Source: a virus
Strand: one strand, 5' to 3'
Length of the DNA stretch: 54,780 bases
IMG/VR virus record: IMGVR_UViG_3300010885_027186
Span: 1 to 54,780 of that record
The notes beneath the pieces were generated by a model that was given only the letters and a program-made list of their open reading frames with translations, made no database searches and was not told where the DNA came from. This document shows positions 7,678-39,919 of the stretch, in pieces (within the stretch, counting starts at the first letter, position 1; every line of letters starts with the position of its first letter). The position numbers and the translations under genes are program-made.

Positions 7678-8405
7678 TGTGCTAGTATAGCACGTTCAAG
7701 TTCAATAATCAAGCTATCGCGGAGAACCGCATGCCCTTTTTCATTCGGGTGCCCTTGAGGGGCAAACAAATCATCATGGTTGGCACATGAGCGTAACACA
7801 TGATCCAGTGATTGGGTTGGCCAGATAAGTGTCGAGCATGGCATGTTTAGTATGCCAAACATGGTGTTAAACTGCAACAAAGGGCCTGTTTCATATCTTG
7901 ACTGCCCTTCAAAAAACAGCACTGTTTGTTGGTAATTCAATTTGTGTACGGCATCACAATCAGTTAATGCCATGTGATGTTTGACCATTTGTGTCCATAT
8001 GGAACTAGGGCCTGCTCCACCACCATGGATCCAAGCATTGTGTACAAATCGATTCCAAGGAGGGTCATTAGAATAGGCCACATGATCGGGATTGTAAAAT
8101 GTTTGTCTGTTGGGATCAGTTAATCCAACTAGTACCGCGCATTGATCAAGCGGGATAGTTTCGTGTTCGCGCCACCAAAGGTAAGTCCAAATAGTACTTT
8201 GCAAGCTGCCGCCCGGAATACCAAAGTTTTCTGTTGGCACTCCATAATGTGCGCCTAGCTGGCCAAGAAAACAGTTACCTTCACGATAAGGTACATTTTC
8301 TATTATAACTGGGTGTGCATGTTCATGTGTGATTAATTCGGGATCAAGCAGTTCGTCGCCCCAGATCCACGAATCTCCAAATGCTACAATTTTATTAAAT
8401 TTCAT
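7674..8405 (-). CDS. SGNH/GDSL hydrolase
   Basis: 243 residues with block I AFGDSWIWGDE (Ser12), block II NFGIPGGSLQST, and block V HPNEKGH around residue 219-225, the usual Asp/His region with the His present. Such enzymes are esterases, often deacetylating sugars. The gene overlaps the primase gene (GTGA) and the virion-type gene upstream (ATGA), so it is expressed in the same unit as the replication proteins although its likely job is at a glycan or cell surface. A second SGNH-like protein is encoded at 2764-3981; they are not close in sequence. Confidence 0.75.
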   Translation of the reverse strand: MKFNKIVAFGDSWIWGDELLDPELITHEHAHPVIIENVPYREGNCFLGQLGAHYGVPTENFGIPGGSLQSTIWTYLWWREHETIPLDQCAVLVGLTDPNRQTFYNPDHVAYSNDPPWNRFVHNAWIHGGGAGPSSIWTQMVKHHMALTDCDAVHKLNYQQTVLFFEGQSRYETGPLLQFNTMFGILNMPCSTLIWPTQSLDHVLRSCANHDDLFAPQGHPNEKGHAVLRDSLIIELERAILAQ

Positions 8406-9190
8406 CTATACTGTATAAGATCAATATTACCGTTGTCGATACCAAGTTCAAGCCTAATGTAAGGATGGTATCCTTCTACATTTATGCCCAAGCGTTCGGT
8501 GCTGTTAGTAAAATTTATCTGATCTACAGTGTTACCAGTTTTTAAATCTTCAAAGGCAACGTTGTACCATTCCTGATTAGTGTCTGGTGAGAAAGTTGCA
8601 CCTTGCACCTGTAGGTTACCGGTAAACTTTAATGAGTCTAGCTGGAAGGTAGTCAATCCTGCGCCGTTGGTGCTTACAGTACTGGTATAGTATGTATTTC
8701 CTTGTGTGGGCTGTCCAGTGGGAATGGTCAGCACATCACTGGCCACAAATGCAGGATAAACTGAATCCACAATGTTGATAACACCACGTGCACCAGCTTG
8801 ATCATCTGTAAACACTGCTCGATCCAGTACACCCGAGGATATTTCAAGACTCCAGCTAGCAGGCTGTGCTTGGAAGTTTAGAGTTTCTGCAGAGGTAATT
8901 GTTACCTTGGCTCGCCCTAGAGTGTTGCTTAGACTTACCAGTTCTTTGGCAAACAAAAGATTTTGTCCGTCTTGGCTGATCATTCTAAACGTGAAAGTAG
9001 CACCTGTAATGTTTACAGGTTTCTGATCTTGATTTTGGAACTGGAACAATAAAACATTGTCCACTCCCAAGTTGAGAGTTAAATTTTTAGCGTACACTGG
9101 GTCCCACCTCCGGTCAAAAAATGCCCCCGTGATGTCCACCAATAATACCGTCTGGATTTGTTGATATAAATAGGCTGTGGTTGAATACAT
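8402..9190 (-). CDS. Virion-type beta-rich protein, possibly baseplate or fibre
   Basis: 262 residues. The first 110 residues (LTLNLGVDNVLLFQFQNQDQ, then ITGATFTFRMI) resemble the N-terminal domain of phage baseplate upper or receptor-binding proteins of the BppU type. The rest is beta-rich, has no cysteine, and ends in LELGIDNGNIDLIQYR. A structural role is inferred from composition and that resemblance. It is the promoter-proximal gene of a unit that continues into SGNH hydrolase, primase and helicase, which is an odd grouping. AGGA precedes the ATG, with an ATAAATA box 17 bases upstream. Confidence 0.6.
   Translation of the reverse strand: MYSTTAYLYQQIQTVLLVDITGAFFDRRWDPVYAKNLTLNLGVDNVLLFQFQNQDQKPVNITGATFTFRMISQDGQNLLFAKELVSLSNTLGRAKVTITSAETLNFQAQPASWSLEISSGVLDRAVFTDDQAGARGVINIVDSVYPAFVASDVLTIPTGQPTQGNTYYTSTVSTNGAGLTTFQLDSLKFTGNLQVQGATFSPDTNQEWYNVAFEDLKTGNTVDQINFTNSTERLGINVEGYHPYIRLELGIDNGNIDLIQYR
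9165..9172 (+). promoter_or_regulatory. Exact T4 late promoter box TATAAATA
   Basis: TATAAATA on the plus strand, 39 bases before the ATG at 9212. It lies inside the first codons of the divergent minus-strand gene. The predicted leader of about 34 bases contains GAGG at 9203-9206, five bases from the ATG. Confidence 0.65.
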
Positions 9191-9206
9191 AAAGGAGTCC
9201 TAGAGG

Positions 9207-9213
9207 TATTTAT
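9207..9213 (-). promoter_or_regulatory. Late-type promoter box ATAAATA
   Basis: ATAAATA on the minus strand, 17 bases before the ATG at 9190, overlapping the start codon of the divergent plus-strand gene. The two late boxes of this gap point away from each other's genes and each lies in or at the edge of the opposite gene. Confidence 0.4.
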
Positions 9214-9589
9214 GGGTGAAAACATGTTCCGTACTTTAAGCGAACATTATCCGTTTATTACAATGTGCATATATTCCAACGTGGAATACGTGGGCATTGT
9301 TCAAAACAGAGACGTTAACGTTACTACTATTTACGATTTTGGCAGCATAAATGCTGATGCCGACCGTCGTGTGTTCCTGGATCTAGCAGCCACTTGGTGG
9401 TGGGAAAGCAATCGCAGTGTGCCTATCAACATATTTTTAAAAGCTGAGTGGGAACGATTCCGGCCCTGCCTTAAAACTTTTGCCAACAAAGATTTAGAAA
9501 TATTGCATGGCCCTGTGTGCAGTCTCAATGATATCTCGCAGAGACGAAGCAAACGGCGCTCAATAACACTAGTAAGAAAAATTGATTGA
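9212..9589 (+). CDS. Small hypothetical protein
   Basis: 125 residues with a Trp-rich centre (ATWWWESNRSVPINIFLKAEW) and a basic C-terminus (SQRRSKRRS). The pattern is familiar from marine T4-like phages, but I know of no assigned function. The start is the ATG after GAGG; a second ATG five codons on is possible. A true TATAAATA box precedes it, so late expression is likely. Its stop overlaps the TTG start of the next gene. Confidence 0.65.
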   Translation: MGENMFRTLSEHYPFITMCIYSNVEYVGIVQNRDVNVTTIYDFGSINADADRRVFLDLAATWWWESNRSVPINIFLKAEWERFRPCLKTFANKDLEILHGPVCSLNDISQRRSKRRSITLVRKID

Positions 9590-10314
9590 ATAACCAAATA
9601 AAGGTATTATTAGCCATTGGAGTTGGTGGTGCCAGAATGGACTTTGTGGCCGGGTGGCTGGGACTCTTGGATAATTTTCTCAACAACCATTGGTCCATTG
9701 ATATAAACACTGGATGCAGTGCTGGTGACCAGTGGTCTCTTAAACCATTAGATTCTGGATTCCCTTTAACTGAAATACTCAACACTAAAAAACTAGTTCT
9801 GTCAAACACCAGTCGACTGACTTGGGCCGGGTCTGGGCACGGGGTGGGGCTTGACAAACTTCTCCCACAGATCAATGATAACAGTGTACAAATACTACAC
9901 ATTGATACCGCAAACACTCGGTACAAAAATAGAATAGCCTGGGAATTTCATGTCAAGACTTACATGAAACAAGACCGAGATAAAATGGTTTATTTTGGCG
10001 GTAAACCAGTTTGGAACATTGACAAAATTATTGGCGCGACTAACATTACCAACACTGATCGTGCTAACTATCTAATTGAATCATTTCAAAGATATCACCC
10101 AAGTCTTGACAAGACTGTAACAGTCCCGCATCTCAACATTCACTATGACGATATATTTGTACCAGGTGGCAGTAAAATACTATGCCAGACTCTAGCAATA
10201 GATGCTCCAGAGAGATATCATCAATACTGGGATGATATGTTAAAATATGCCCTTAGCCCAGCTGAACTAACTGTCTGGGACCACCTATGGCGCTACAGCG
10301 ACTACTATTCTTGA
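9586..10314 (+). CDS. Hypothetical protein, possible sulfotransferase-like
   Basis: 242 residues. The first residues VLLAIGVGGARMDFVAGWLG form a hydrophobic strand followed by a glycine-rich turn and helix, as in the phosphosulfate-binding loop of sulfotransferase-like proteins, but no further family motif is certain. The start is TTG in TTGA shared with the previous stop; the next ATG (9637) would remove the conserved-looking strand, so TTG is preferred. It converges on the mini-polymerase gene with a 10-base overlap. The function call is weak. Confidence 0.5.
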   Translation: MNNQIKVLLAIGVGGARMDFVAGWLGLLDNFLNNHWSIDINTGCSAGDQWSLKPLDSGFPLTEILNTKKLVLSNTSRLTWAGSGHGVGLDKLLPQINDNSVQILHIDTANTRYKNRIAWEFHVKTYMKQDRDKMVYFGGKPVWNIDKIIGATNITNTDRANYLIESFQRYHPSLDKTVTVPHLNIHYDDIFVPGGSKILCQTLAIDAPERYHQYWDDMLKYALSPAELTVWDHLWRYSDYYS

Positions 10315-10877
10315 TTTAATAAATTCATGTGTAGTGCTACCAAGGCAGCATAGCTCACAGCGTGTGCTTTTTTAAAAGTGTAACCTCGACTGTCATCTCC
10401 ATCCCATACTGAGTCAAATACATTACGCCAAGATTGTTTTTGTAAATGTGCTTTACCTGGTCTAATAATACTAATAAATGCAGCCATCTGTTGTGTATTT
10501 GTTGGGCGCATGCTCTGCAATAATTCAGTGTAGTTGCCCACGTGTACCAGTTGGCTTGCCCAGACAGCGTCTTGCCACAATCTATCCCAGGGTGGAGTAG
10601 TTGTCAGCATTTGATTGTAGTGTTCAGGACTTTTGATCAATTGATACACACTCATATTCAAAAAGTCTATTTTAAAATAGCCACGAGTCTCTGCTGTTTC
10701 GTAATCTATGGCTGCACAGTTGTTCAAAATATCTTGTGGTATGTCTGTAACATACACACCTGAATTGTGTCGGCGCACACGACCGTCAACTACTTGTCTT
10801 GCTGGAGTATGTTTAATCAAGCCAAGTACCTGATCTCGATTGGCAAAATCAATGTCAATATCTGCGCTCATTACCAT
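10305..10877 (-). CDS. Miniature DNA polymerase III alpha (C-family) palm-like protein
   Basis: 190 residues that line up in order with palm segments of bacterial DnaE. ADIDIDF..RDQVLGLI (5-21) matches PDFDVDF..RDQVI with the catalytic Asp pair at D8 and D10. HNSGVYVTDIP (37-47) matches HAGGVVIAP. GYFKIDFLNM (66-75) matches VKFDFLGL with the third catalytic Asp at D71. MAAFISIIRPG (131-141) matches MIALVALFRPG. YTFKKAHAVSYAALVALHM (166-184) matches YGFNKSHSAAYALVSYQT. The usual protein exceeds 1,000 residues; PHP, fingers, beta-binding and tau-binding parts are absent. Last of five overlapping genes. The start is ATG at 10877 or 10871, the latter with AGGA five bases upstream. Polymerase activity is unproven. 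Confidence 0.7.
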   Translation of the reverse strand: MVMSADIDIDFANRDQVLGLIKHTPARQVVDGRVRRHNSGVYVTDIPQDILNNCAAIDYETAETRGYFKIDFLNMSVYQLIKSPEHYNQMLTTTPPWDRLWQDAVWASQLVHVGNYTELLQSMRPTNTQQMAAFISIIRPGKAHLQKQSWRNVFDSVWDGDDSRGYTFKKAHAVSYAALVALHMNLLNQE

Positions 10878-11545
10878 CCTGCCTTTGCTAATATGTCTCG
10901 TGTGTACTCGGTATCAGCTACGTAGTCACGAAACTTTTTTTGCCAAAAATCACTGTCAATAATATTCCAAATCATGGAAATTTGTCCCGGGTTCAGTCTA
11001 GCAAGAAACTCTTGCCCCGATGCACAATTATACACTACCCAGGGACTTATGCGACCTGATACAACGGCATGACATATTGCATTGTCATTGCCATAACGCA
11101 AAAAGTCATGCGATGGGTTGTTGGTTTCCTCGCTCCAGGTTATGCTGTGTTCGATTGCACGAGCCAGTGCATCAGATATGTTTTCACTGCGCAAGTAATC
11201 AGCTAGGTATTCTGTATAAACACTATCCCGGCACCAGTTGTCAATTTTTTTATTTTGTTTAACTACCCAATCTATAAATCTAGACACATTCACAGCACGG
11301 ATAGCTACACAATAACGCCCAAATTTTACAAATGCCTTGTAGTAAGGTGATTTAGCAAAGTCGTCGAATGTTTTTAGTCGTGCTGATCCTTGGCTGATTT
11401 CGTAGAATCGCAAATAAGATTGCAAGCCCAGTTGAACACCTACTTCAGATTGTTCTTGATGTCGGCGTTTGGCCTCACACACGTGAACTGCTAGACTGGT
11501 TTCTTTTATAAAACTTTTTTCACAGTAACGACATTGGTAAGTCAT
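10871..11545 (-). CDS. Zinc-finger protein upstream of the mini-polymerase
   Basis: 224 residues. The N-terminus has a C2H2-like finger, YQCRYCEKSFIKETSLAVHV followed by C28 and H33, so C5, C8, H22 and C28 or H33 can bind zinc. The remainder is helical with conserved-looking Trp and Tyr (PYYKAFVKFGRYC, RFIDWVVKQNKKIDNWC) and no known catalytic motif. It overlaps the mini-polymerase start by up to seven bases and is itself coupled to the upstream gene by ATGA. A DNA-binding partner of the polymerase-like protein is a reasonable inference, not shown by sequence. Confidence 0.65.
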   Translation of the reverse strand: MTYQCRYCEKSFIKETSLAVHVCEAKRRHQEQSEVGVQLGLQSYLRFYEISQGSARLKTFDDFAKSPYYKAFVKFGRYCVAIRAVNVSRFIDWVVKQNKKIDNWCRDSVYTEYLADYLRSENISDALARAIEHSITWSEETNNPSHDFLRYGNDNAICHAVVSGRISPWVVYNCASGQEFLARLNPGQISMIWNIIDSDFWQKKFRDYVADTEYTRDILAKAGW

Positions 11546-11991
11546 TTATCTTGGCCTAGATCCTTGAGATGTGCGTCGATGTCTTTTTGTGACACCAAAT
11601 GACTTAGTGTTTCTGCATCACTACCCTTCATGTTGGGGTACAAGTTCATCAATTGTTTTTTCTTTGTACCAGCATTGGCTTTGTTGTCATCTTTCTTTTT
11701 GGGCGAGATCCACTGGTGTTTAAACGTACCCATGCCCGGACTCACTGCTGTGGCACACAACCATTGCAATTTGGGATGCCGGTTTATGGCAAAAAAGTGT
11801 TTGTTGAGATAGTGATTGCAACTTTGTAGATAGTATTCTTGTAGTTCTTGGCTGCCGTGCACAGCCGACCCCCATCGAATCATTAGATAGTTGCTGAACT
11901 TCTTGCGTTCTTCATCTGTCAGACTGTCGTAAAAGTCTCGATCCTTGCGGTCAAGACATGCCATTTCGTTGTGTATGCTAAGTTTATCCAT
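11542..11991 (-). CDS. Conserved-type hypothetical protein (weak clamp-loader gp62 candidate)
   Basis: 149 residues with DFYDSLTDEERKKFSNYLMI, a RWGSAVHGS turn, and NRHPKLQWLCATAVSPGMG, then a basic KKKDDNK stretch. I have a loose memory of similar proteins near replication genes of marine T4-like phages. The small clamp-loader subunit gp62 is one possibility, but no gp44 is next to it and I cannot align it with T4 gp62, so the name is not assigned. It overlaps both neighbours (8 and 4 bases) in the five-gene unit that ends with the mini-polymerase. Confidence 0.6.
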   Translation of the reverse strand: MDKLSIHNEMACLDRKDRDFYDSLTDEERKKFSNYLMIRWGSAVHGSQELQEYYLQSCNHYLNKHFFAINRHPKLQWLCATAVSPGMGTFKHQWISPKKKDDNKANAGTKKKQLMNLYPNMKGSDAETLSHLVSQKDIDAHLKDLGQDK

Positions 11992-12172
11992 TGCGTCGAT
12001 TAATCATTGCAGTTGCATCGTCGACTCTTGCCTTGAGTCTCTTTAGTTCTCTTTCAAGAAAATCAATACGACTATTTTGTGCTTTTATTAATTCTTTAAG
12101 ATCCTGACTGTGGTCAGTTTTTTGTTCAACAGCAACTTTTACCGGGGGTCCACTTTTTTCGTATTGTTCCAT
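11984..12172 (-). CDS. Small coiled-coil protein
   Basis: 62 residues from the ATG at 12172; a TTG three codons earlier in the same frame is the alternative. The C-terminal half, LIKAQNSRIDFLERELKRLK and on, is a clear heptad coiled coil, so it likely oligomerises. The N-terminus is polar. It overlaps the downstream gene by eight bases and lies in the unit transcribed from the promoter at 12682-12710. Function is unknown. Confidence 0.6.
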   Translation of the reverse strand: MEQYEKSGPPVKVAVEQKTDHSQDLKELIKAQNSRIDFLERELKRLKARVDDATAMINRRNG

Positions 12173-12174
12173 GA

Positions 12175-12675
12175 TTACCAAGCCTTGTTATAATCGACTA
12201 TTTCGCAATTTCTACTTACATCTTTTACAAAATAAACACAGTCGGGGTTTTTATGATCTGTCAGCGGGACTGCCAGCATCTGTCCGTTCTTGAGTTTAGG
12301 AGCATACCATGTGACTTCGTGGTACACGTCTACAATTTCAATCTCAGGGAAACTGGGCCTAAAGCTACTCAAGGGATTGAATTGAAATACCTTAAATCCT
12401 CGATCATTGATTGACGTTAAAGGTAACACTTCAAGGTCCCCTAGATCGGGTTCACCAATAAGTATCTGCCAATCCATGGGCATCTTGATTGTGTCCTCGC
12501 CCACACGCAATATCAATGCAGGAGCCGCAAAGCTTTCTAGAAAGATTAAAGGTATGTAGTAATAGTCAGGATTAGAAGTGTCCGAATTATCTAGGATAGC
12601 AAACCTCATGTCGTCTACCTCTTCTGGCAGCGTGTCAAGGTTGTAGGGCCGATTGTCTAGTGTTAGTATTCTCAT
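12175..12675 (-). CDS. Conserved-type hypothetical protein, first gene of the mini-polymerase unit
   Basis: 166 residues, acidic, starting MRILTLDNRPYNLDTLPEEV. It has segments FLESFAAPALILRVGEDTI, LPLTSINDRGFKVFQFNPLS and VYFVKDVSRNCEIVDYNKAW. The whole protein looks well conserved in marine T4-like phages, but I know no function. No Shine-Dalgarno sequence precedes the ATG; instead the TATACT -10 element ends six bases before it, so the mRNA is predicted to start at the start codon. It heads five overlapping genes. Confidence 0.7.
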   Translation of the reverse strand: MRILTLDNRPYNLDTLPEEVDDMRFAILDNSDTSNPDYYYIPLIFLESFAAPALILRVGEDTIKMPMDWQILIGEPDLGDLEVLPLTSINDRGFKVFQFNPLSSFRPSFPEIEIVDVYHEVTWYAPKLKNGQMLAVPLTDHKNPDCVYFVKDVSRNCEIVDYNKAW

Positions 12676-12681
12676 GAGTGT

Positions 12682-12710
12682 AGTATAGCAGGTATAATTG
12701 TAAATGTCAA
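12682..12710 (-). promoter_or_regulatory. Near-consensus sigma70 promoter, leaderless
   Basis: TTGACA (12705-12710), 17-base spacer, TATACT (12682-12687) preceded by TGC (extended -10), on the minus strand. The -35 overlaps the end of the uvsW gene. Six bases separate the -10 from the ATG at 12675, so +1 is predicted at the A of the start codon. Confidence 0.75.
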
Positions 12711-14173
12711 ATTTTCATCCATTCCAACTTCTCTTGTGTGAAAGGATAGTTGGCTTCTTTGTAAAACTGCTTGCGTTTGGTCAAGTGACGCTTGGCAAAC
12801 TTGCAGGTACTGGTTATGTCCCAGATCTGAACATGATCCTTGTCTTCGGCTTTTCTTATGCCACGCCCAATGCTTTGTATAACGCGGACAAAGCTTTTTC
12901 CGGGTTCCACAAGAACCAGATTAAAAATCCTAGGGATATTAATGCCCACAGCGGCAACACCATAGGTAGCCACAATAATCTTATCAACACTGTCTGCCAC
13001 TTGATCATATTCATCTTGTCTGTCTTTTGCTTTGGTTGCGCCCGATACAAATACTGATTTGTCTCCCAGACGTTCCACCAATTGGCGTCCACACTCGGTA
13101 CGATCTACCAAGACCAAGGTATTGCCGGTTAAATTAACTTGTTGTATTAGATTGGCCATGGTATCTAATCGGCCAGATTCTTCCAGCAAGTATTTAAGCT
13201 CGCTTTGATAATCATTGTACTCCACGTGATCCACCAGTTGTACAATGTTTACATGGCACTGTGCTAGCACTCCTCGATCCTGTAGTTCGCTGGCAGCAAG
13301 TCTGCTAATCACAGGACCTAGACTAACCAACAAACTTACGCTTTCAAATTTCTCCTTGGGTATTGTGCCCGTTAATCCCCAACGAATAGGCACTCTAGAC
13401 ATCACGCCCGTTAGCAAAGTTTTGAGTGCATCTGCCTTGGCCATGTGCACTTCGTCTACTATAACGCACACCACATCTTCCATGAAGTCTTGTATGGTGA
13501 ATTCTGCTTTGCCCGACTTGGTGTCTTTCAACAAGTTGTTTAGACTTTGCCAGGTGCAAATGGTGTGTGTTCGGCCATATTCTTTTCTGTCGCCAAAATA
13601 CACGCCCACATTCAAGCCCAAGTTAACATAGTCTTTTTCTGTTTGTGTCACTAGACTCTTGTTGGGCACAATAACAATGCTACGACCATATGGTTCAATT
13701 CTACTGCTCAAGGCCGCAGTCATAACAGTTTTGCCTGCACCCGTAGCCACTTCCTGAATGCATTGTGGGTTGTTCAAGTAGTTGTTCACAATCTCAACTT
13801 GGTAGTCACGCATCATGACTGGTTCCCCAGCTTGCGGGTGGCCTTTGGGCCAAGACTTGTGTGCAAATGACGTTTCTTCAAATGGTACAAAGTCAAACGA
13901 CACTGAATAGTCTCGTTGGTCATCTAGTTCAACGTCGTAATTGTACTGTTCAAGTACAGGGATGATCTCGGGCAACAAGTTGGTAAATGTACTGCCACCC
14001 AGTTGGAAGTAGGCCATTTTGCCATCCCACCGTCCCAGTCTCACAGCTGGTAGATATCGTGCATAAGGTATTTCGTATTTGAATTGTTTGGTCAATCTTT
14101 GACGCATGTCTAGATCAAGTCCTTCGATCTTGATATTGACTTCATCTTTGATTACTATGGTTGCTGTTTTCAT
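12707..14173 (-). CDS. uvsW: UvsW-like DNA/RNA helicase (superfamily 2)
   Basis: Branch-migration helicase that remodels recombination and fork intermediates. Motifs in order: N-terminal UvsW domain with VRLGRWDGKMAYF, Walker A EVATGAGKT (about 141-149), DEVH (240-243, where DEAH/DECH is usual), GLTGTIP, and the motif VI region QSIGRGIRKAED. The start is set at ATGA (14173) shared with the stop of the upstream gene; an ATG at 14203 in the same frame would add ten unlikely residues and overlap the upstream gene by 34 bases. 488 residues is normal. The -35 of the next operon's promoter overlaps the 3' end. Confidence 0.9.
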   Translation of the reverse strand: MKTATIVIKDEVNIKIEGLDLDMRQRLTKQFKYEIPYARYLPAVRLGRWDGKMAYFQLGGSTFTNLLPEIIPVLEQYNYDVELDDQRDYSVSFDFVPFEETSFAHKSWPKGHPQAGEPVMMRDYQVEIVNNYLNNPQCIQEVATGAGKTVMTAALSSRIEPYGRSIVIVPNKSLVTQTEKDYVNLGLNVGVYFGDRKEYGRTHTICTWQSLNNLLKDTKSGKAEFTIQDFMEDVVCVIVDEVHMAKADALKTLLTGVMSRVPIRWGLTGTIPKEKFESVSLLVSLGPVISRLAASELQDRGVLAQCHVNIVQLVDHVEYNDYQSELKYLLEESGRLDTMANLIQQVNLTGNTLVLVDRTECGRQLVERLGDKSVFVSGATKAKDRQDEYDQVADSVDKIIVATYGVAAVGINIPRIFNLVLVEPGKSFVRVIQSIGRGIRKAEDKDHVQIWDITSTCKFAKRHLTKRKQFYKEANYPFTQEKLEWMKI

Positions 14174-33855: not shown

Positions 33856-33862
33856 TATTTAA
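33856..33862 (-). promoter_or_regulatory. Late-type promoter box TTAAATA before gp17
   Basis: TTAAATA on the minus strand four bases before the gp17 ATG, overlapping the stop of the nuclease gene. No Shine-Dalgarno sequence. Chance occurrence in AT-rich sequence cannot be excluded. Confidence 0.35.
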
Positions 33863-34668
33863 TCGGCTTTGCCGCACCGGGCCCTTTTTGCGTTGGTGAG
33901 TGCACCGTAGTCAACTGGCCATTCTGTGCCAGGTGCCAGTTCCTTTGCTCCAGCTGGCAAGCCAAACTTGACGCCTGCATATTCTTGAATCTGTGCAATA
34001 GGTGCACGGAATTTGGTCAAGTCGTTGCCTAAGTTTTGGTAGGGCTTGACGTGTGGGAAGTTCCAGCCTGCAATTTCTTTAGTGGCATTGTTGATCACAA
34101 TCTTGTAAAAGCCATGTGGCACAATTACGCCATTGCCAATTACATCGTCCTTGGCACCATAAAACGCACCCACATAAATTGTGTAAGGCTGATTGCGTTG
34201 TACTGTCCACCCACGTATTGCTGTTTCTAATAACTTCCAGATTCCACGATTGAGTGATCCGTGTTGTGGATACATGTTGGTCATCAAGAATGACTCGTAC
34301 TCTACTTGTTCGCTCCAGGATAAGTCACCGTCAGGTGCGGCATGTCCTTTGTCATAACCTGTGCCAGCATAGTCGTCTGGCTTGGCACCACCCGGAACTG
34401 AACGATCAGCAACAAAGGCGTTGGTTCTTGGCCAGCATCCCAATGCATTAGGTGGTGTTAATGTGTAAGCAACGTACACAGGGATCTTAACAGGAGCATC
34501 ATATGCCACAAAGTATGCTTCTCTGCAGATAGGTTGTGCTGGTCTCTGTGTTTGTGCAAACCCGTACGGATTGTGTACTTGACAGGCTTGTACAGGATTA
34601 GGAGCACGTTGGTCCCAAGCAAACGCTTGTGTGGATAAAAGTAATAGTGTTAAGAGTATTTTTTTCAT
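33859..34668 (-). CDS. Secreted DNA/RNA non-specific endonuclease (NUC1 family)
   Basis: 269 residues. A Sec signal peptide is clear: MKK, the hydrophobic ILLTLLLLSTQ, then AFA before W18. The mature part has YDKGHAAP (D106-P112), a variant of the DRGHMAP motif with the catalytic His109, then MTNMYPQHGSLNRGIWKLLE with the metal-binding Asn and the NRGIW block. The family cuts DNA and RNA without sequence preference and needs Mg. The signal peptide predicts export to the periplasm or outside. Six Cys in the mature part could form disulfides. It starts in TAATG with the upstream fibre-like gene and lies just before gp17. Confidence 0.88.
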   Translation of the reverse strand: MKKILLTLLLLSTQAFAWDQRAPNPVQACQVHNPYGFAQTQRPAQPICREAYFVAYDAPVKIPVYVAYTLTPPNALGCWPRTNAFVADRSVPGGAKPDDYAGTGYDKGHAAPDGDLSWSEQVEYESFLMTNMYPQHGSLNRGIWKLLETAIRGWTVQRNQPYTIYVGAFYGAKDDVIGNGVIVPHGFYKIVINNATKEIAGWNFPHVKPYQNLGNDLTKFRAPIAQIQEYAGVKFGLPAGAKELAPGTEWPVDYGALTNAKRARCGKAD

Positions 34669-35291: not shown

Positions 35292-35602
35292 AAAATGCCA
35301 TTGGTATCAATGCCAGCATTGCGTTTAATTGATGCTAGTTCATCTGCACCGTCTGCACATTGCTCGTCATGAGCATGGTCTACTCCGAGTAGACCCTTGA
35401 CCAATTCCATTTTGCGCTGTAGTGGAGATACCATAGGTTCATTATCAGCACCAGCATCCAGATTGTCAACGTTGTCTATTTCTACACCTGCACTAGCAGG
35501 GCTCATCTCAGCACGATTTTGCAGTCGTTCGTCGGCACCACCTGGGTCGTCTTGTTGATCAATTGCGTCGGCAGCACGTCGTAATAGGTCGCTAATTTTC
35601 AT
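35288..35602 (-). CDS. Small acidic protein, possibly packaged
   Basis: 104 residues, acidic. It starts MKISDLLRRAADAIDQQ and has MSPASAGVEIDNVDNLDAG and a SPLQRKMELVKGLLGVDHAH segment. The start overlaps the preceding stop (ATGA) in a row of similar small genes that carry capsid-targeting-like N-termini, although its own N-terminus lacks the terminal Glu site. Function unknown. Confidence 0.55.
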   Translation of the reverse strand: MKISDLLRRAADAIDQQDDPGGADERLQNRAEMSPASAGVEIDNVDNLDAGADNEPMVSPLQRKMELVKGLLGVDHAHDEQCADGADELASIKRNAGIDTNGIF

Positions 35603-35988
35603 CTTGGATATCCTTTGAATGCTTTTACCGGGCTCTTGGTGTCAACGAAACCAGGTTCTGTGCTGGCAGGGGTTGACACTAGTCGTTTACCACCTGGTGT
35701 GTTGGTCATTCGTAATGCGGCATCAATAATTTGATCTACACTAGGCGCCATGCCTGCAACAATACCGTGCTCGCCAAAAGCTGTTTCGTCGTGCCATTCA
35801 GGCAAGTTGGGGTTTACTTCATCTTTAACAGCTTCGCTTCTTGCTCGTGCAATAGCCACACCAAATCTATAATTTCTATATGGATCAGCGGCGCTGAGTC
35901 CCGGGATTACATAAGTGTAACGCATGGGGTCAGCTTGCTCAGGTGGCAACTTGGCTGCCTGCTCTGTAATAAACTCACGGGCTCTCAT
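35599..35988 (-). CDS. Small protein with capsid-targeting-like N-terminus
   Basis: 129 residues. MRAREFITEQ resembles the T4 internal-protein targeting sequence MKTYQEFIAEA, with ITE as a possible prohead-protease cleavage site (I-x-E). The C-terminus SPVKAFKGYPR is almost identical to SPVKSFKGYPR of the next upstream gene, and the DNA of both gene ends is nearly identical. The middle (YRFGVAIARARSEAVKDEVN) is mixed helical. Packaging into the capsid is inferred. Confidence 0.6.
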   Translation of the reverse strand: MRAREFITEQAAKLPPEQADPMRYTYVIPGLSAADPYRNYRFGVAIARARSEAVKDEVNPNLPEWHDETAFGEHGIVAGMAPSVDQIIDAALRMTNTPGGKRLVSTPASTEPGFVDTKSPVKAFKGYPR

Positions 35989-36353
35989 CTTGGATAGCCT
36001 TTGAATGATTTTACCGGACTGACGATGTTTACGGCTGGGTGTTCTTCACTTTTTAGATCGCCCTTGTTTAAATCTTTGTATTCAGCGCCAGCGGCCTTGT
36101 AACCTTTGATCAACATCTGTTGTTCTTCTTCGGTGTAAGGGTGGGCACTACGATCTTTACCAATCCAAGATTCACCATCAAGATCAGGAACAAATGTTCC
36201 ATCAGTAGATGCCACTGCCATCATCACACGATTTAATGTGTATGTGCTGTCAGTGCGTGATGGATCAAAAAATAAATTCAAGCCAATAGTGGGATTCTGT
36301 TGGCGTCGAGTAATTTTACCTCTTGACTCATGGATAAATTCTGTTGCTCGCAT
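35985..36353 (-). CDS. Small protein with capsid-targeting-like N-terminus
   Basis: 122 residues. MRATEFIHES fits the same pattern as its neighbour (I-H-E as cleavage site), and it ends SPVKSFKGYPR. Between, LNLFFDPSRTDSTYTLNRVM and HPYTEEEQQMLIKGYKAAG suggest a small mixed domain related to that of the gene at 35599-35988 (both contain a row RFGVA/NRVMMA then acid turns). It is coupled to that gene by ATGA. It is probably a diverged tandem copy. Confidence 0.6.
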   Translation of the reverse strand: MRATEFIHESRGKITRRQQNPTIGLNLFFDPSRTDSTYTLNRVMMAVASTDGTFVPDLDGESWIGKDRSAHPYTEEEQQMLIKGYKAAGAEYKDLNKGDLKSEEHPAVNIVSPVKSFKGYPR

Positions 36354-36356
36354 GGA

Positions 36357-36632
36357 TTAGACTTGTCTTACTGCGTACTTGCCTGATGTAGTTGTGCCTA
36401 CTTCTTCAATTGTGCATGTGCCTACAACTGTGAGTTGATTGCCCACTCCCACAAATACGTCCTTAGAACTGTTGGCTGGCACTGATGGCGGGGCAGAATA
36501 CAGGTTACCTGTGGCACTGGGATACAAAATATTGACTTGAAAAGTCACAGGACTTGTCCCAGCATTGATCCTAGCTTTGTCTGTGTAAATTACTTGGTTA
36601 GTAGCACTAGTATATACGTTTGCTTGACTCAT
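36357..36632 (-). CDS. Small virion-type protein
   Basis: 91 residues, beta-prone, with no charged cluster: INAGTSPVTFQVNILYPSAT, PPSVPANSSKDVFVGVGNQL and CTIEEVGTTTSGKYAVRQV. The pattern suits a head decoration or tail accessory protein. AAAGGAA precedes the ATG. It follows the gene at 36636-37157 by three bases. No specific homology recognised. Confidence 0.55.
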   Translation of the reverse strand: MSQANVYTSATNQVIYTDKARINAGTSPVTFQVNILYPSATGNLYSAPPSVPANSSKDVFVGVGNQLTVVGTCTIEEVGTTTSGKYAVRQV

Positions 36633-36635
36633 CGA

Positions 36636-37157
36636 TTATGTTCCTTTATTAATGTTGGCTAATTCTAATACACGATATAAATCTTTAGAAGATTCAGACA
36701 ACTCTTTGTCATGCCCGTACTCATCAGCAAGCCTGTTAACTACAATTTCTAAAATTTCTTCAAAATCATCATCAGGATGTAAACCATTATCTGTTGCCGC
36801 AGTGTCGTACATGTTGTCAAGAATTTGAGACACATACTTTTCTTCTGGGGTGCCAGGACGGGTCATAATGTCATATGCATCTAGTGTTCCATTGATGATA
36901 TCTTGAATTACTTGGTCAACATCGCCCATGCCTTCGTCGATAACACCAGAGGTAGGTCCAGTGGGCTCAAGAGCTAGAGTCTTTGCAACCAATTGTCCAG
37001 CACCTTCATCTTCGTTTGTGTAGCCCATGGCTCGATTATTTCCCACAGCTCCGTACCGACGTATGGTCTCTAATAGCTGACGAGTTTTTTTATCGCTAGC
37101 TACCGGAGCACAAGGTTCAATCTTGGTCTCTGCTATGTAATCGCGTAGGCTTTTCAT
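36636..37157 (-). CDS. Protein with capsid-targeting-like N-terminus
   Basis: 173 residues, acidic. MKSLRDYIAETKIEP matches the T4 targeting pattern (MKTYQEFIAEA) with IAE as a possible protease site. The rest contains DEGMGDVDQVIQDIINGTLD and a DDDFEEILEIVVNRLADEYG helix. Its start overlaps by one base the stop of the 716-residue gene. Likely a packaged or prohead-associated protein, inferred from the N-terminus and location. Confidence 0.6.
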   Translation of the reverse strand: MKSLRDYIAETKIEPCAPVASDKKTRQLLETIRRYGAVGNNRAMGYTNEDEGAGQLVAKTLALEPTGPTSGVIDEGMGDVDQVIQDIINGTLDAYDIMTRPGTPEEKYVSQILDNMYDTAATDNGLHPDDDFEEILEIVVNRLADEYGHDKELSESSKDLYRVLELANINKGT

Positions 37158-39307
37158 TATGCAATTCGCTTGTACAATTCAACAACGTCGTTGCTCTCGG
37201 CCATGGGGCCTTGGCGAGCAGGTTGGCGGTTGAACGGAGCACCTACTGTTTGGCCAGTATCTTTACGACCGTCTAATCCACCGCTAAGACCATTCACCAT
37301 GTAGTCGGTGTCTGCGTATTCAGTGTTGTCACCAGAGTTGGCTAGATCTTCTTCAACATGATCGCACCCGCAATCACTTGATCCACAACCGGGGCATACT
37401 GCGCCGTAACCTTCACTTTGGCCACCAACACCAGCCAAGTTCAACAACTGGCTTAGTTTAACTGCATCTTCATCTGTGGCTGTTACTGTTAGACTCTTTT
37501 TGCCGTCTTGGTCAGCACTCATGTTAACACTCATGCCTTCGTTGAGAACCGTTTTGAGTTTGGAGTTGAAGCTTTCAGCAATGGTGCTTTCATATACACC
37601 TTTACCAAAAGTCATACCGCCCGAGCCATTGGATGCTTTGCCACCTGCGGCAGGTGCTACACTTCCGGACACTGTGTTTTCTTCAACTTCGTCTTTTTTC
37701 TTTTCTTTACGATCTTTTTTGTCATCGTACTCAATGTCTTTTGTGACTTTCTTACCGGCTTTTTCAGCTCGGTTGTCGTCCTTGCCTTTGTGACCTTCGT
37801 CGTGCTCGATGTCTTTGGCAACTCGCTTGCCAGCTTTTTCGGCATGTTGATCTTCTTTGTCTGTAGACTCTTCTTCTACCTTGCCAGCTTTTTTGGCTTT
37901 CCAGGTAGTAGCATAAGCAATAGCTTTGTCTTTACCGCTTAGATTACCATCTTTGCTCAAGGATTTTTTAATACCTTTGACCATGCGTTCAGCCTTTTCA
38001 CCAGGAGGAGCTTTTTCTTCAACTGGTTGTGCACCTTGGCTCAACTTGTACTTGAGTAACTTGACTAAATCATTCCATACTTCACGACCCTGTGGATCAG
38101 ATATGAATGACTTAAGACTAGTTGCCAGTTGCCAGGCTTTTTGTAATTCACTACCAGAGAATGATGCGGCTTCTTCAAGGTCGCCTTCACGAGTCATCAG
38201 CTTGGACTTGCCGCTTGGGCCCTTGGCTCCAATACTCTTGCCAGCACCTTTACCACCTGGGCGTCCACGGCCGCGCTTCTCGCCCGGTTTGTCATCATCT
38301 GTTCCAACTGAGTGGCCTGTGTTGGGATCGACTCTACGTGTTACTTTACGACCAGTTGCTGTATGTTCAATGTCGTGCAATGCGCCATGTTCAATACTGC
38401 CAATTTTGGGTCGTTCAATATGTGGACGCTTGTGTGCTGTAAATGGGCTGTGACCTTCTTCGTCCATTTCAGCACTACGACCCATGCCGCCGCCTAGTGC
38501 TTTCTTCATGGCTTCTGCAGCCACGTCGCCTAGCATTTCGTCAACTTCTTTCTTGGCGCCAGCAATCTTGTCAGCAAATGTAATTTTGTCTGTGGGTGGT
38601 GCCAGTTTAGCAAATGACTTTTGTTTGGGAGTCATTGTGAATGCTCCTTCGACCATGTAGTCAGCTGTGGCAATAGCGTCATCTTGACTTTCTGTAAAGT
38701 AACGGCTTTCCACAATTTCTTGTCCTTTGCTAAACACACGCACATGGAATTCGTTATAGGCTGTGTCGCAATACACCTTAGCTGTTTGATCGGCGCCTTC
38801 TTTTACAGCAACCAACTTGATTGATTCTTTCATACCAAGTTCTTGTTTGCGTCTTGCTAGGCCAGCTGATGTTGTTGGGCTATTGGTTTTTTCTTTTTCA
38901 AGATCTTGCATTTTCATCTTCCAGTCAGGACCTTGCGCTTTGCGTTGCACAGCGGGAATTTGGCTCTTGTCCGGGGCAGCCTGATATGCGCCTTCTTCTA
39001 CTTGATCTTCTTCTAGCTTGCCAGCTTTGGCCAACTTGTTGCGAACAGCACCTGCTACACGCTCACCAGCAGCCTTGCTGCCATATTTGGCCCCAGCTGA
39101 CTTAGCAATCTTAGCAAAGTTCTTGCCTGGCTTGCCTTCGTCTTTGCCTTCAGCCACTTCTTTATCAGCTACAGCTTTTTTAAATGTTTCTTTTTTGTTG
39201 CCGTCTTTGTCAATGTCCAGGAAGTCAGGTTTGGCCTTGCCTTCGTTCAGTGTTTGACGAGCCGCCAAGTCACTCAGCTTTTTGTTTAAGTCGTAAAAAA
39301 ATGTCAT
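37157..39307 (-). CDS. Large low-complexity charged protein, possible internal head or scaffold protein
   Basis: 716 residues. MTFFYDLNKKLSDLAARQTL followed by NEGKAKPDFLDIDKDGNKKE starts it; LNE/G could be a prohead-protease site. Long stretches are Lys/Glu/Asp-rich and disordered (KDRKEKKKDEVEENT, EEESTDKEDQHAEKAGKRVA) with repeated VxKDIEHDE and VTKDIEYDD units. A Cys cluster CPGCGSSDCGCDH near residue 665 could bind zinc. I recall similar N-termini in marine T4-like phages. Packaging in the head, or core scaffold, is likely but not proven. AAGGAAA precedes the ATG. Confidence 0.6.
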   Translation of the reverse strand: MTFFYDLNKKLSDLAARQTLNEGKAKPDFLDIDKDGNKKETFKKAVADKEVAEGKDEGKPGKNFAKIAKSAGAKYGSKAAGERVAGAVRNKLAKAGKLEEDQVEEGAYQAAPDKSQIPAVQRKAQGPDWKMKMQDLEKEKTNSPTTSAGLARRKQELGMKESIKLVAVKEGADQTAKVYCDTAYNEFHVRVFSKGQEIVESRYFTESQDDAIATADYMVEGAFTMTPKQKSFAKLAPPTDKITFADKIAGAKKEVDEMLGDVAAEAMKKALGGGMGRSAEMDEEGHSPFTAHKRPHIERPKIGSIEHGALHDIEHTATGRKVTRRVDPNTGHSVGTDDDKPGEKRGRGRPGGKGAGKSIGAKGPSGKSKLMTREGDLEEAASFSGSELQKAWQLATSLKSFISDPQGREVWNDLVKLLKYKLSQGAQPVEEKAPPGEKAERMVKGIKKSLSKDGNLSGKDKAIAYATTWKAKKAGKVEEESTDKEDQHAEKAGKRVAKDIEHDEGHKGKDDNRAEKAGKKVTKDIEYDDKKDRKEKKKDEVEENTVSGSVAPAAGGKASNGSGGMTFGKGVYESTIAESFNSKLKTVLNEGMSVNMSADQDGKKSLTVTATDEDAVKLSQLLNLAGVGGQSEGYGAVCPGCGSSDCGCDHVEEDLANSGDNTEYADTDYMVNGLSGGLDGRKDTGQTVGAPFNRQPARQGPMAESNDVVELYKRIA

Positions 39308-39316
39308 GTTGTTTCC

Positions 39317-39919
39317 TTATTTTCTAAAGCCGGTTGTTGGCTTGGGGGGTCGTTTAACTGCTGTCATGGGGCTCTTAACGCCCATGGGCAAATCGTTTGT
39401 TGTTTCAGCAGGAGGAGTCTTGCCGCCAGCCACTGTCCAGGTTGCATCTTCTGCAGAATTCTTGACCACTTGTTTGTCTTTACCAACAGCGGCATAATCC
39501 TTCTTGAGATCTTTTTGTTCTTTATTGTCAGCAGGATATGGACTGTTGAGCAGGTCTTTGTTTTGTTCTTCAATTCCCAGCAACTCTTTGTCCATGCCTT
39601 CGGCCCAGTCACGCTGAACAATGCAAATGCGATTTTCATCAAAGCCCAACAATCTAGCAACTTGTTGAACTTGTGGAGGAGTTACAGGGTAACGAAATGT
39701 CACATCCATCATGTTCACAGACTCGTTAGGGAAATCTGGAAAGTCCATGTGTCGACTCATGATTGGGGTTGATTTAATTTCACCCATTGATGCGGGATCA
39801 AACTTTTTGAGTTGATCTTTGAGTTGTTTAACAAACTCAGCGGGCACATCACCTACAATTTTGATTCGATAATCAAAGGTTTGTGTGCTTTCGGTCAAAT
39901 ATTGTGCAAATGTTTTCAT
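39317..39919 (-). CDS. Protein with capsid-targeting-like N-terminus
   Basis: 200 residues. MKTFAQYLTES is the closest match in the window to the T4 targeting sequence MKTYQEFIAEA, with LTE as the possible cleavage site. The domain after it, FDYRIKIVGDVPAEFVKQLK and PVTPPQVQQVARLLGFDENR, looks like a small alpha/beta fold. The C-terminus VKRPPKPTTGFRK is basic. AGGA precedes the ATG and an ATAAATA box lies 18 bases upstream. Probably packaged inside the capsid; inferred. Confidence 0.65.
   Translation of the reverse strand: MKTFAQYLTESTQTFDYRIKIVGDVPAEFVKQLKDQLKKFDPASMGEIKSTPIMSRHMDFPDFPNESVNMMDVTFRYPVTPPQVQQVARLLGFDENRICIVQRDWAEGMDKELLGIEEQNKDLLNSPYPADNKEQKDLKKDYAAVGKDKQVVKNSAEDATWTVAGGKTPPAETTNDLPMGVKSPMTAVKRPPKPTTGFRK

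Follow-up and report, generated by a model that had tools for sequence, protein, structure and literature searches.

Proteins that phages inject into their hosts are usually unknown and costly to find, and a sequence rule would allow packaged proteins to be listed from metagenomes as candidate injected cargo. In bacteriophage T4, the internal proteins IPI to IPIII and Alt carry a capsid-targeting sequence (CTS) that is cut by gp21 (PMC9026906). For IPIII, residues 4 and 7 of this sequence matter for targeting, and residues 8 and 10 for processing (PMC9026906). The giant phages SPN3US and phiKZ have large heads with many internal proteins that are cut by a prohead protease (PMC5694885, PMC7411985, PMC10052503), and in phages as well as conjugative elements, multi-domain polyvalent proteins have been proposed to undergo packaging and injection (Iyer et al. 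2017, PMC5512222). In the open-access literature, to which our search was confined, no T4-type CTS cargo was described for the jumbo-phage group considered here or for cyanophages.

The window analysed in this study is a 54.8-kb IMG/VR fragment (54,780 nucleotides), to which all coordinates refer unless stated otherwise. Several of its proteins start with a tag that has, in its 10-residue form, the same K2, aromatic residues 4 and 7, [LI]8 and E10 as the T4 sequence, and likewise an [LI]xE site. As in T4, unrelated bodies stand behind one tag, and relatives of the window encode a protease of the gp21 family (PF03420). Family searches showed no sequence relation of the tagged bodies to the T4 internal proteins. 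The window's phage differs from T4 in the dominance of a 9-residue form, MRAxEFIxE, in its mosaic multi-module cargo with internal sites, and in gene order and genome size. SPN3US and phiKZ belong to another lineage, and the likeness to them lies in the large heads and the many protease-cut internal proteins. Cyanophage virion enzymes carry the same tag (MKNFSSFLTE, MKSFLQFLKE, MRFRQFIIE; PMC10665884, PMC9602691, PMC9146016), although the phages in question, S-CREM2, S-SCSM1 and S-SZBM1, are marine or estuarine phages of about 175-230 kb. The best explanation for these observations, to which we assign a probability of about 0.82, is T4-type CTS packaging followed by a cut by the prohead protease and the probable release of some of the cargo. 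Its direct basis consists of sequence, conservation, modularity, the occurrence of the protease in related contigs and the agreement with virion proteomes published for other phages.

Gene order and tagged proteins of the window

The window's terminase shares about 50% identity with the terminases of Pseudomonas phage PA5oct, its relatives and Sinorhizobium phage Phosso, and the window is therefore part of a T4-related jumbo phage. Capsid, portal and protease genes were not recognised within the 54.8 kb. On the minus strand, the genes for a sheath protein, two tube proteins, a small protein, a gp4-like head closure protein and a TerS-like protein are followed by those for P200, P716, P173, P91, P122, P129 and P104, and then by those for a tail-like protein, a nuclease, TerL, P277 and P677. 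The main elements of this order are the same in PA5oct, of which gp282 (the P200 homologue), gp281 (at the position of P716) and gp278 (the P677 homologue) have been annotated as structural proteins by ESI-MS/MS. Relatives keep P200, P716, P122 and P129 in synteny, at positions between TerS-like and TerL, and all four are highly conserved. The nuclease (phrog_14168; 33859-34668), located between the tail-like gene and TerL, has a signal peptide-like start, and the same arrangement is present in genomes G001 and G004.

Four tagged N-termini were found exactly where the sequence-only reading had placed them, namely at 39919 (MKTFAQYLTE/S, P200), 37157 (MKSLRDYIAE/T, P173), 36353 (MRATEFIHE/S, P122) and 35988 (MRAREFITE/Q, P129), a slash marking the putative cut. 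The single pattern by which they had been joined fits the first two, but the other two are one residue shorter, with two residues instead of three between [KR] and [ED]. The tag family thus comes in two lengths, of 10 and of 9 residues. All four proteins stand as tagged members of the proposed family, but P122 and P129 are paralogues, which leaves three independent tagged families in the window.

P200 is a CTS protein of 200 amino acids (39317..39919, minus strand) with a ferredoxin-like core and a disordered tail, and 150 loci contain a relative. In its 10-residue tag (39890..39919), for which a cut is expected after E10, M1, K2, Y7, L8 and E10 are invariant among 40 orthologues, F4 and S11 are nearly so, and positions 3, 5, 6 and 9 vary. 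An AlphaFold model (pLDDT 68.5), of which the first ten residues have low confidence, shows a helix at residues 4-10 in front of a beta-alpha-beta, ferredoxin-like core. Fold searches returned general ferredoxin/S6-like matches that did not point to a function, and the viral matches were uncharacterised phage proteins; a P200 HMM gave no match in S-CREM2, S-SCSM1 and S-SZBM1. The P200 homologues of PA5oct and Phosso keep MKxF..Y and have lost the glutamate, that of PA5oct beginning with MKSFRDYYDAS. Scanning of the PA5oct ORFs with the regular expression given below revealed no strict tag, and PA5oct was dropped as a test case for this reason. This absence speaks against the T4-type reading, as PA5oct is the closest isolate with a virion proteome. 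P200 is the most conserved of the tagged proteins. Given that its PA5oct homologue is virion-annotated and that its gene in relatives lies between those for the TerS-like protein and TerL, it may belong to the head core and not be an effector.

P173 is a CTS protein of 173 amino acids (36636..37157, minus strand) with modules that are common to other CTS proteins, and its tag (37128..37157) appears in orthologues as MKTLKDYLTE, MKSFRDYLDE or MKSLRDYITE. P122 (35985..36353, minus strand; 304 related stretches in viral contigs) and P129 (35599..35988, minus strand; 117 loci with a relative) carry 9-residue tags (36327..36353 and 35962..35988, respectively) that are conserved in orthologues in the form MRAxEF[IVL]xE, with M1, R2, A3, E5, F6 and E9 invariant in the case of P122. 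The two proteins are 27% identical, and P129 cross-matches a P122 orthologue with E=1e-5. No relative of either was found in the isolated phages searched at an E-value of 0.01. A structure model of P122 was set aside at a pLDDT of 54. P122 and P129 (35599-36353) share a C-terminal tail that is conserved in orthologues, SPVKSFKGYPR in P122 and SPVKAFKGYPR in P129 (SPVK[SA]FKGYPR), and the tail of P200 (39317-39376) reads SPMTxxKRPPKPxTGF, again conserved in orthologues. These tails are a putative second signal common to CTS proteins.

The tag in relatives, in T4 and in cyanophage virions

The regular expression M[KR]x{3,4}[FYW][ILVM]xE was built on the window N-termini and matches the first start codon of 4 of the 73 window ORFs. 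The sequence-only reading had proposed a motif search of all N-termini, and this was performed on the window and three relatives of about 350 kb. Starts of 26 of the 1,454 ORFs matched (24 at first start codons and two at downstream starts, with two or three matches that look false), versus none of 5,114 internal methionine positions. The tag motif is therefore more than a chance occurrence. It is almost invariant in orthologues of the tagged proteins. Its proposed likeness to the T4 sequence is borne out at the positions for which mutations have shown a role: the conserved tag positions coincide with the tested positions 4, 7, 8 and 10 of IPIII, and the tag ends in a conserved [LI]xE, the form of the T4-type cleavage site. 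Moreover, a gp21-type protease (PF03420) and a gp23-type capsid protein (PF07068) are encoded in all eight large related contigs. The capsid N-termini of relatives carry VILE/N and YLKE/NA sites (three capsid genes read), as expected for a gp21-type enzyme.

The regular expression, fixed on the window family, was run untuned on cyanophages with published virion proteomes. In S-CREM2, all three matches, the SAM hydrolase ORF6 (MKDFDSFLEE), ORF13 (MKDLHSFLTE) and the cytidylyltransferase ORF154 (MKNFSSFLTE), are among the 52 virion proteins detected by mass spectrometry. In the APH/ChoK-like kinase ORF14, also a virion protein, the tag (VKRFDAFLTE) has GTG as its start codon and is not covered by the fixed expression. 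One of two matches in S-SCSM1, the NMNAT ORF91, belongs to the virion proteins; the other, ORF30, is missing from the virion list, although its gene lies between two virion genes and adjoins terL. S-SZBM1 has three matches, a cytidylyltransferase that is in the virion list and the small ORFs 191 and 192, encoded near the terminase gene, which are absent from the reported virion proteins. Pooled over the three phages, 5 of 8 tagged ORFs were virion-detected versus 1.4 expected (P=0.006). The authors of the S-CREM2 study left contamination open for the regulatory enzymes and did not mention targeting sequences (PMC10665884). Judged from sequence, the tag would offer a reason for the presence of these enzymes in the head, and it would likewise explain the SAM hydrolase, NMN adenylyltransferase and other such enzymes in virions.

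Minor observations concern the same cyanophages. The regions 7704-10313 and 10579-12846 of S-CREM2 (OR473000) encode a virion-associated Cas9-like nuclease, in which residues 17-25 (LRFASFMAE) are CTS-like, and the virion kinase with the full GTG-start tag. At 122311-125375 of S-SZBM1 (OL473597), near the terminase gene, one of the two tagged small ORFs ends with a KRRSFCARMSG...RSWNC-type module that recurs in CTS proteins of jumbo phages, and a nearby large ORF has a start that resembles the KQQRFMGMVHAAQKGE module of P716 orthologues.

Module borders and candidate internal cleavage sites

Two otherwise unrelated proteins of 716 and 643 residues had been noted to start with L/I-x-E/G sites, and these sites (L20-N-E22/G and I3-N-E5/G) are indeed conserved in orthologues. 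P716 (37157..39307, minus strand), which takes the position of the PA5oct structural protein gp281, is a charged mosaic of short modules. It contains 13 [LIVM]xE[GASNT] sites, compared with 3.6 in shuffled sequences, and none of 1000 shuffles reached this number. The [LI]xE of its leader is kept in all 40 distinct orthologues read, and the length of the leader varies. P677 (29407..31440, minus strand) is homologous to the virion structural protein gp278 of PA5oct in its N-terminal half. In its C-terminal third, modules follow one another and are set apart by VTE/G, VAE/G and LAE/G; the protein has 13 candidate sites versus 3.8 in shuffles. The P677 modules recur in other mosaics and in CTS proteins.

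P643 (556..2487, minus strand) combines an NTase-like half with a ligase-like half. Its only Pfam match is DUF6267 (PF19782, E=5e-30), and motifs are the basis for reading the two halves as NTase and ligase; NTP_transf_2 and Amidoligase_2 matches occur in relatives. The protein starts with MQINE/GG, and [ILV]xE/GGN is kept in all 79 orthologue starts read, behind leaders of 4 to 10 residues (MITE to MINPLKRLLE) that resemble the 7-residue propeptide of T4 Alt. P643 had been counted among the tagged members, of which the conserved site after a short leader stands, but it lacks the full tag and is not a strict CTS protein. A second site, LVE/A at residue 265, lies where the ligase-like half begins, and this half exists by itself as a CTS protein in loci L175, L189 and L190 of other phages.

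When the first 11 residues were removed from 376 unique tagged ORFs, the remaining bodies fell into 18 single-linkage families, including GNAT-like proteins (weak Pfam matches), a ParB-like protein (recognised by eye), ligase-like proteins with DUF6267, and mosaics. Seven modules, checked by hand, occur both directly behind the tag and inside unrelated proteins: MRAQDFIVE/GLSQPVICVDVQPEY versus EQDLAE/GLSHPVICVDVQPEY; MRAQEFITE/GKLSVDVPNE versus KKQGVAE/GKLSVDVPNE; MRANEFVTE/GWSQKYKNSINC versus DDYIEE/KWSSKYKNSINC and QSVAE/QWSQKYKSSINC; MRAQDFIKE/AFDKPYKLLRWEKGDYGDVD versus ESINE/SLDQPYKILRWEKGDYGDVD; MRLKEFILE/NKIKGADGKACWDG versus NAVDE/AKKKGADGKACWDG; MRASEFITE/GAYQGGLRKWFRQKW versus EKISE/TDLEEDLRKWFKQKW; and, for DUF6267, MRAFEFLTE/AEAPAPKKVGREFNHLEDLVF versus ESVNE/EAPAPKKVGREFNHLEDLVF, this module following GMRPLVE/A in P643. 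At every boundary of these modules, or within 4 residues of it, there is an [ILVM]xE. The same module border is therefore a putative cut site in different contexts.

Broader scans were less clear. An all-against-all boundary test on 3,426 proteins gave little signal (1207 versus 1061 in the control), which is attributable to truncated ORFs and interior sites. Restricted to whole genomes, the test gave 0.0089 versus 0.0021 per position, with tail fibres and glycosyltransferases diluting the signal. An automatic boundary tally of 94 out of 97 was inflated by orthologues with GTG starts and was replaced by the seven hand-checked swaps. Genome-wide enrichment of the strict linker G[ILVM]xE[GSNDA] was limited to one of three relatives, and repeated GVAE/G linkers are confined to a few proteins. 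Because the broad automatic scans gave weak or contaminated signals, the argument from modules is based on the seven hand-checked cases.

Probable packaging, rival readings and possible injection

According to the explanation that we favour, the short N-terminal helix M-[KR]-...-[FY]-[IL]-x-E would bind the scaffold core while the prohead assembles and thereby bring the attached protein inside, after which the gp21-type prohead protease would cut behind the tag glutamate and leave the mature protein free in the head. The tag would be exchangeable between unrelated bodies, and mosaic cargo with further [ILVM]xE sites may give several packaged pieces from one precursor. Some packaged proteins would probably exit the head together with the DNA and be active early in the newly infected cell, like T4 IPI and Alt. 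Core binding, the cut and the release into the cell are steps that we infer. Judging by the sequences, packaging and cleavage of the tagged proteins are likely; by analogy, injection and anti-host action would be a reasonable extension for the enzymatic cargo.

The tagged proteins could also be scaffold-like proteins of the prohead core, comparable to T4 gp67 and gp68, which are packed and cut to free space for DNA and have no role after infection. The conserved synteny of P200, P716, P122 and P129, the charged, mosaic and site-rich nature of P716 and the structural annotation of the PA5oct homologues are consistent with this possibility, and a head-core role of these four proteins is a live alternative that may apply. 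However, GNAT-, ParB- and ligase-like bodies in relatives, as well as the SAM hydrolase and cytidylyltransferase of cyanophage virions, carry the same tag and have no obvious scaffold role. We therefore regard a pure core function as possible but somewhat doubtful.

It seems unlikely that the N-terminal peptide is an uncut docking helix for the neck, the tail or the inner face of the capsid. Such a helix would accommodate the P200 homologues of PA5oct and Phosso, since these keep MKxF..Y without the glutamate and gp282 is virion-annotated all the same. Yet in the window's clade the glutamate and the residue two positions before it are invariant, the boundaries of transplanted modules fall at the same site, and P643 and P716 keep [ILV]xE alone while their leaders vary in length and sequence. 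Even less credible is shared ancestry only, in which several genes would have inherited one N-terminal segment without any address function. That P122 and P129 are paralogues and that many tagged genes adjoin each other would agree with common descent, but the variable tag positions change freely and the key ones do not, the bodies are unrelated, and there is agreement with T4 and cyanophages as well as a link to virion proteomes.

Used as a sequence rule, the tag would point to new host-takeover or counter-defence proteins. A further idea, which we put forward tentatively and at slightly less than even odds, is that of capsid-targeted polyproteins: one tag would carry a mosaic precursor into the prohead, the protease would cut at the [ILVM]xE between modules, and small effectors would be delivered with the DNA. 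The modules would be shuffled at exactly these sites, as exchangeable cassettes of injected cargo common to freshwater jumbo phages and marine cyanophages.

Next to tagged genes, cargo islands that encode large mosaic proteins are present in G001 (52170-75524), G004 (336504-345086 and 707-1375) and G002 (283039-295733), in the coordinates of these genomes. The domains of these mosaics are NTase, HExxH metallopeptidase-like, kinase-like, amidoligase and GP88 domains. As in polyvalent proteins, the cargo islands repeatedly contain NTase-, ParB- and GNAT-like domains, whereas a packaging tag and prohead protease-type sites at module borders are visible here in addition. The mosaics of G001, G002 and G004 are candidates for injected polyvalent proteins.
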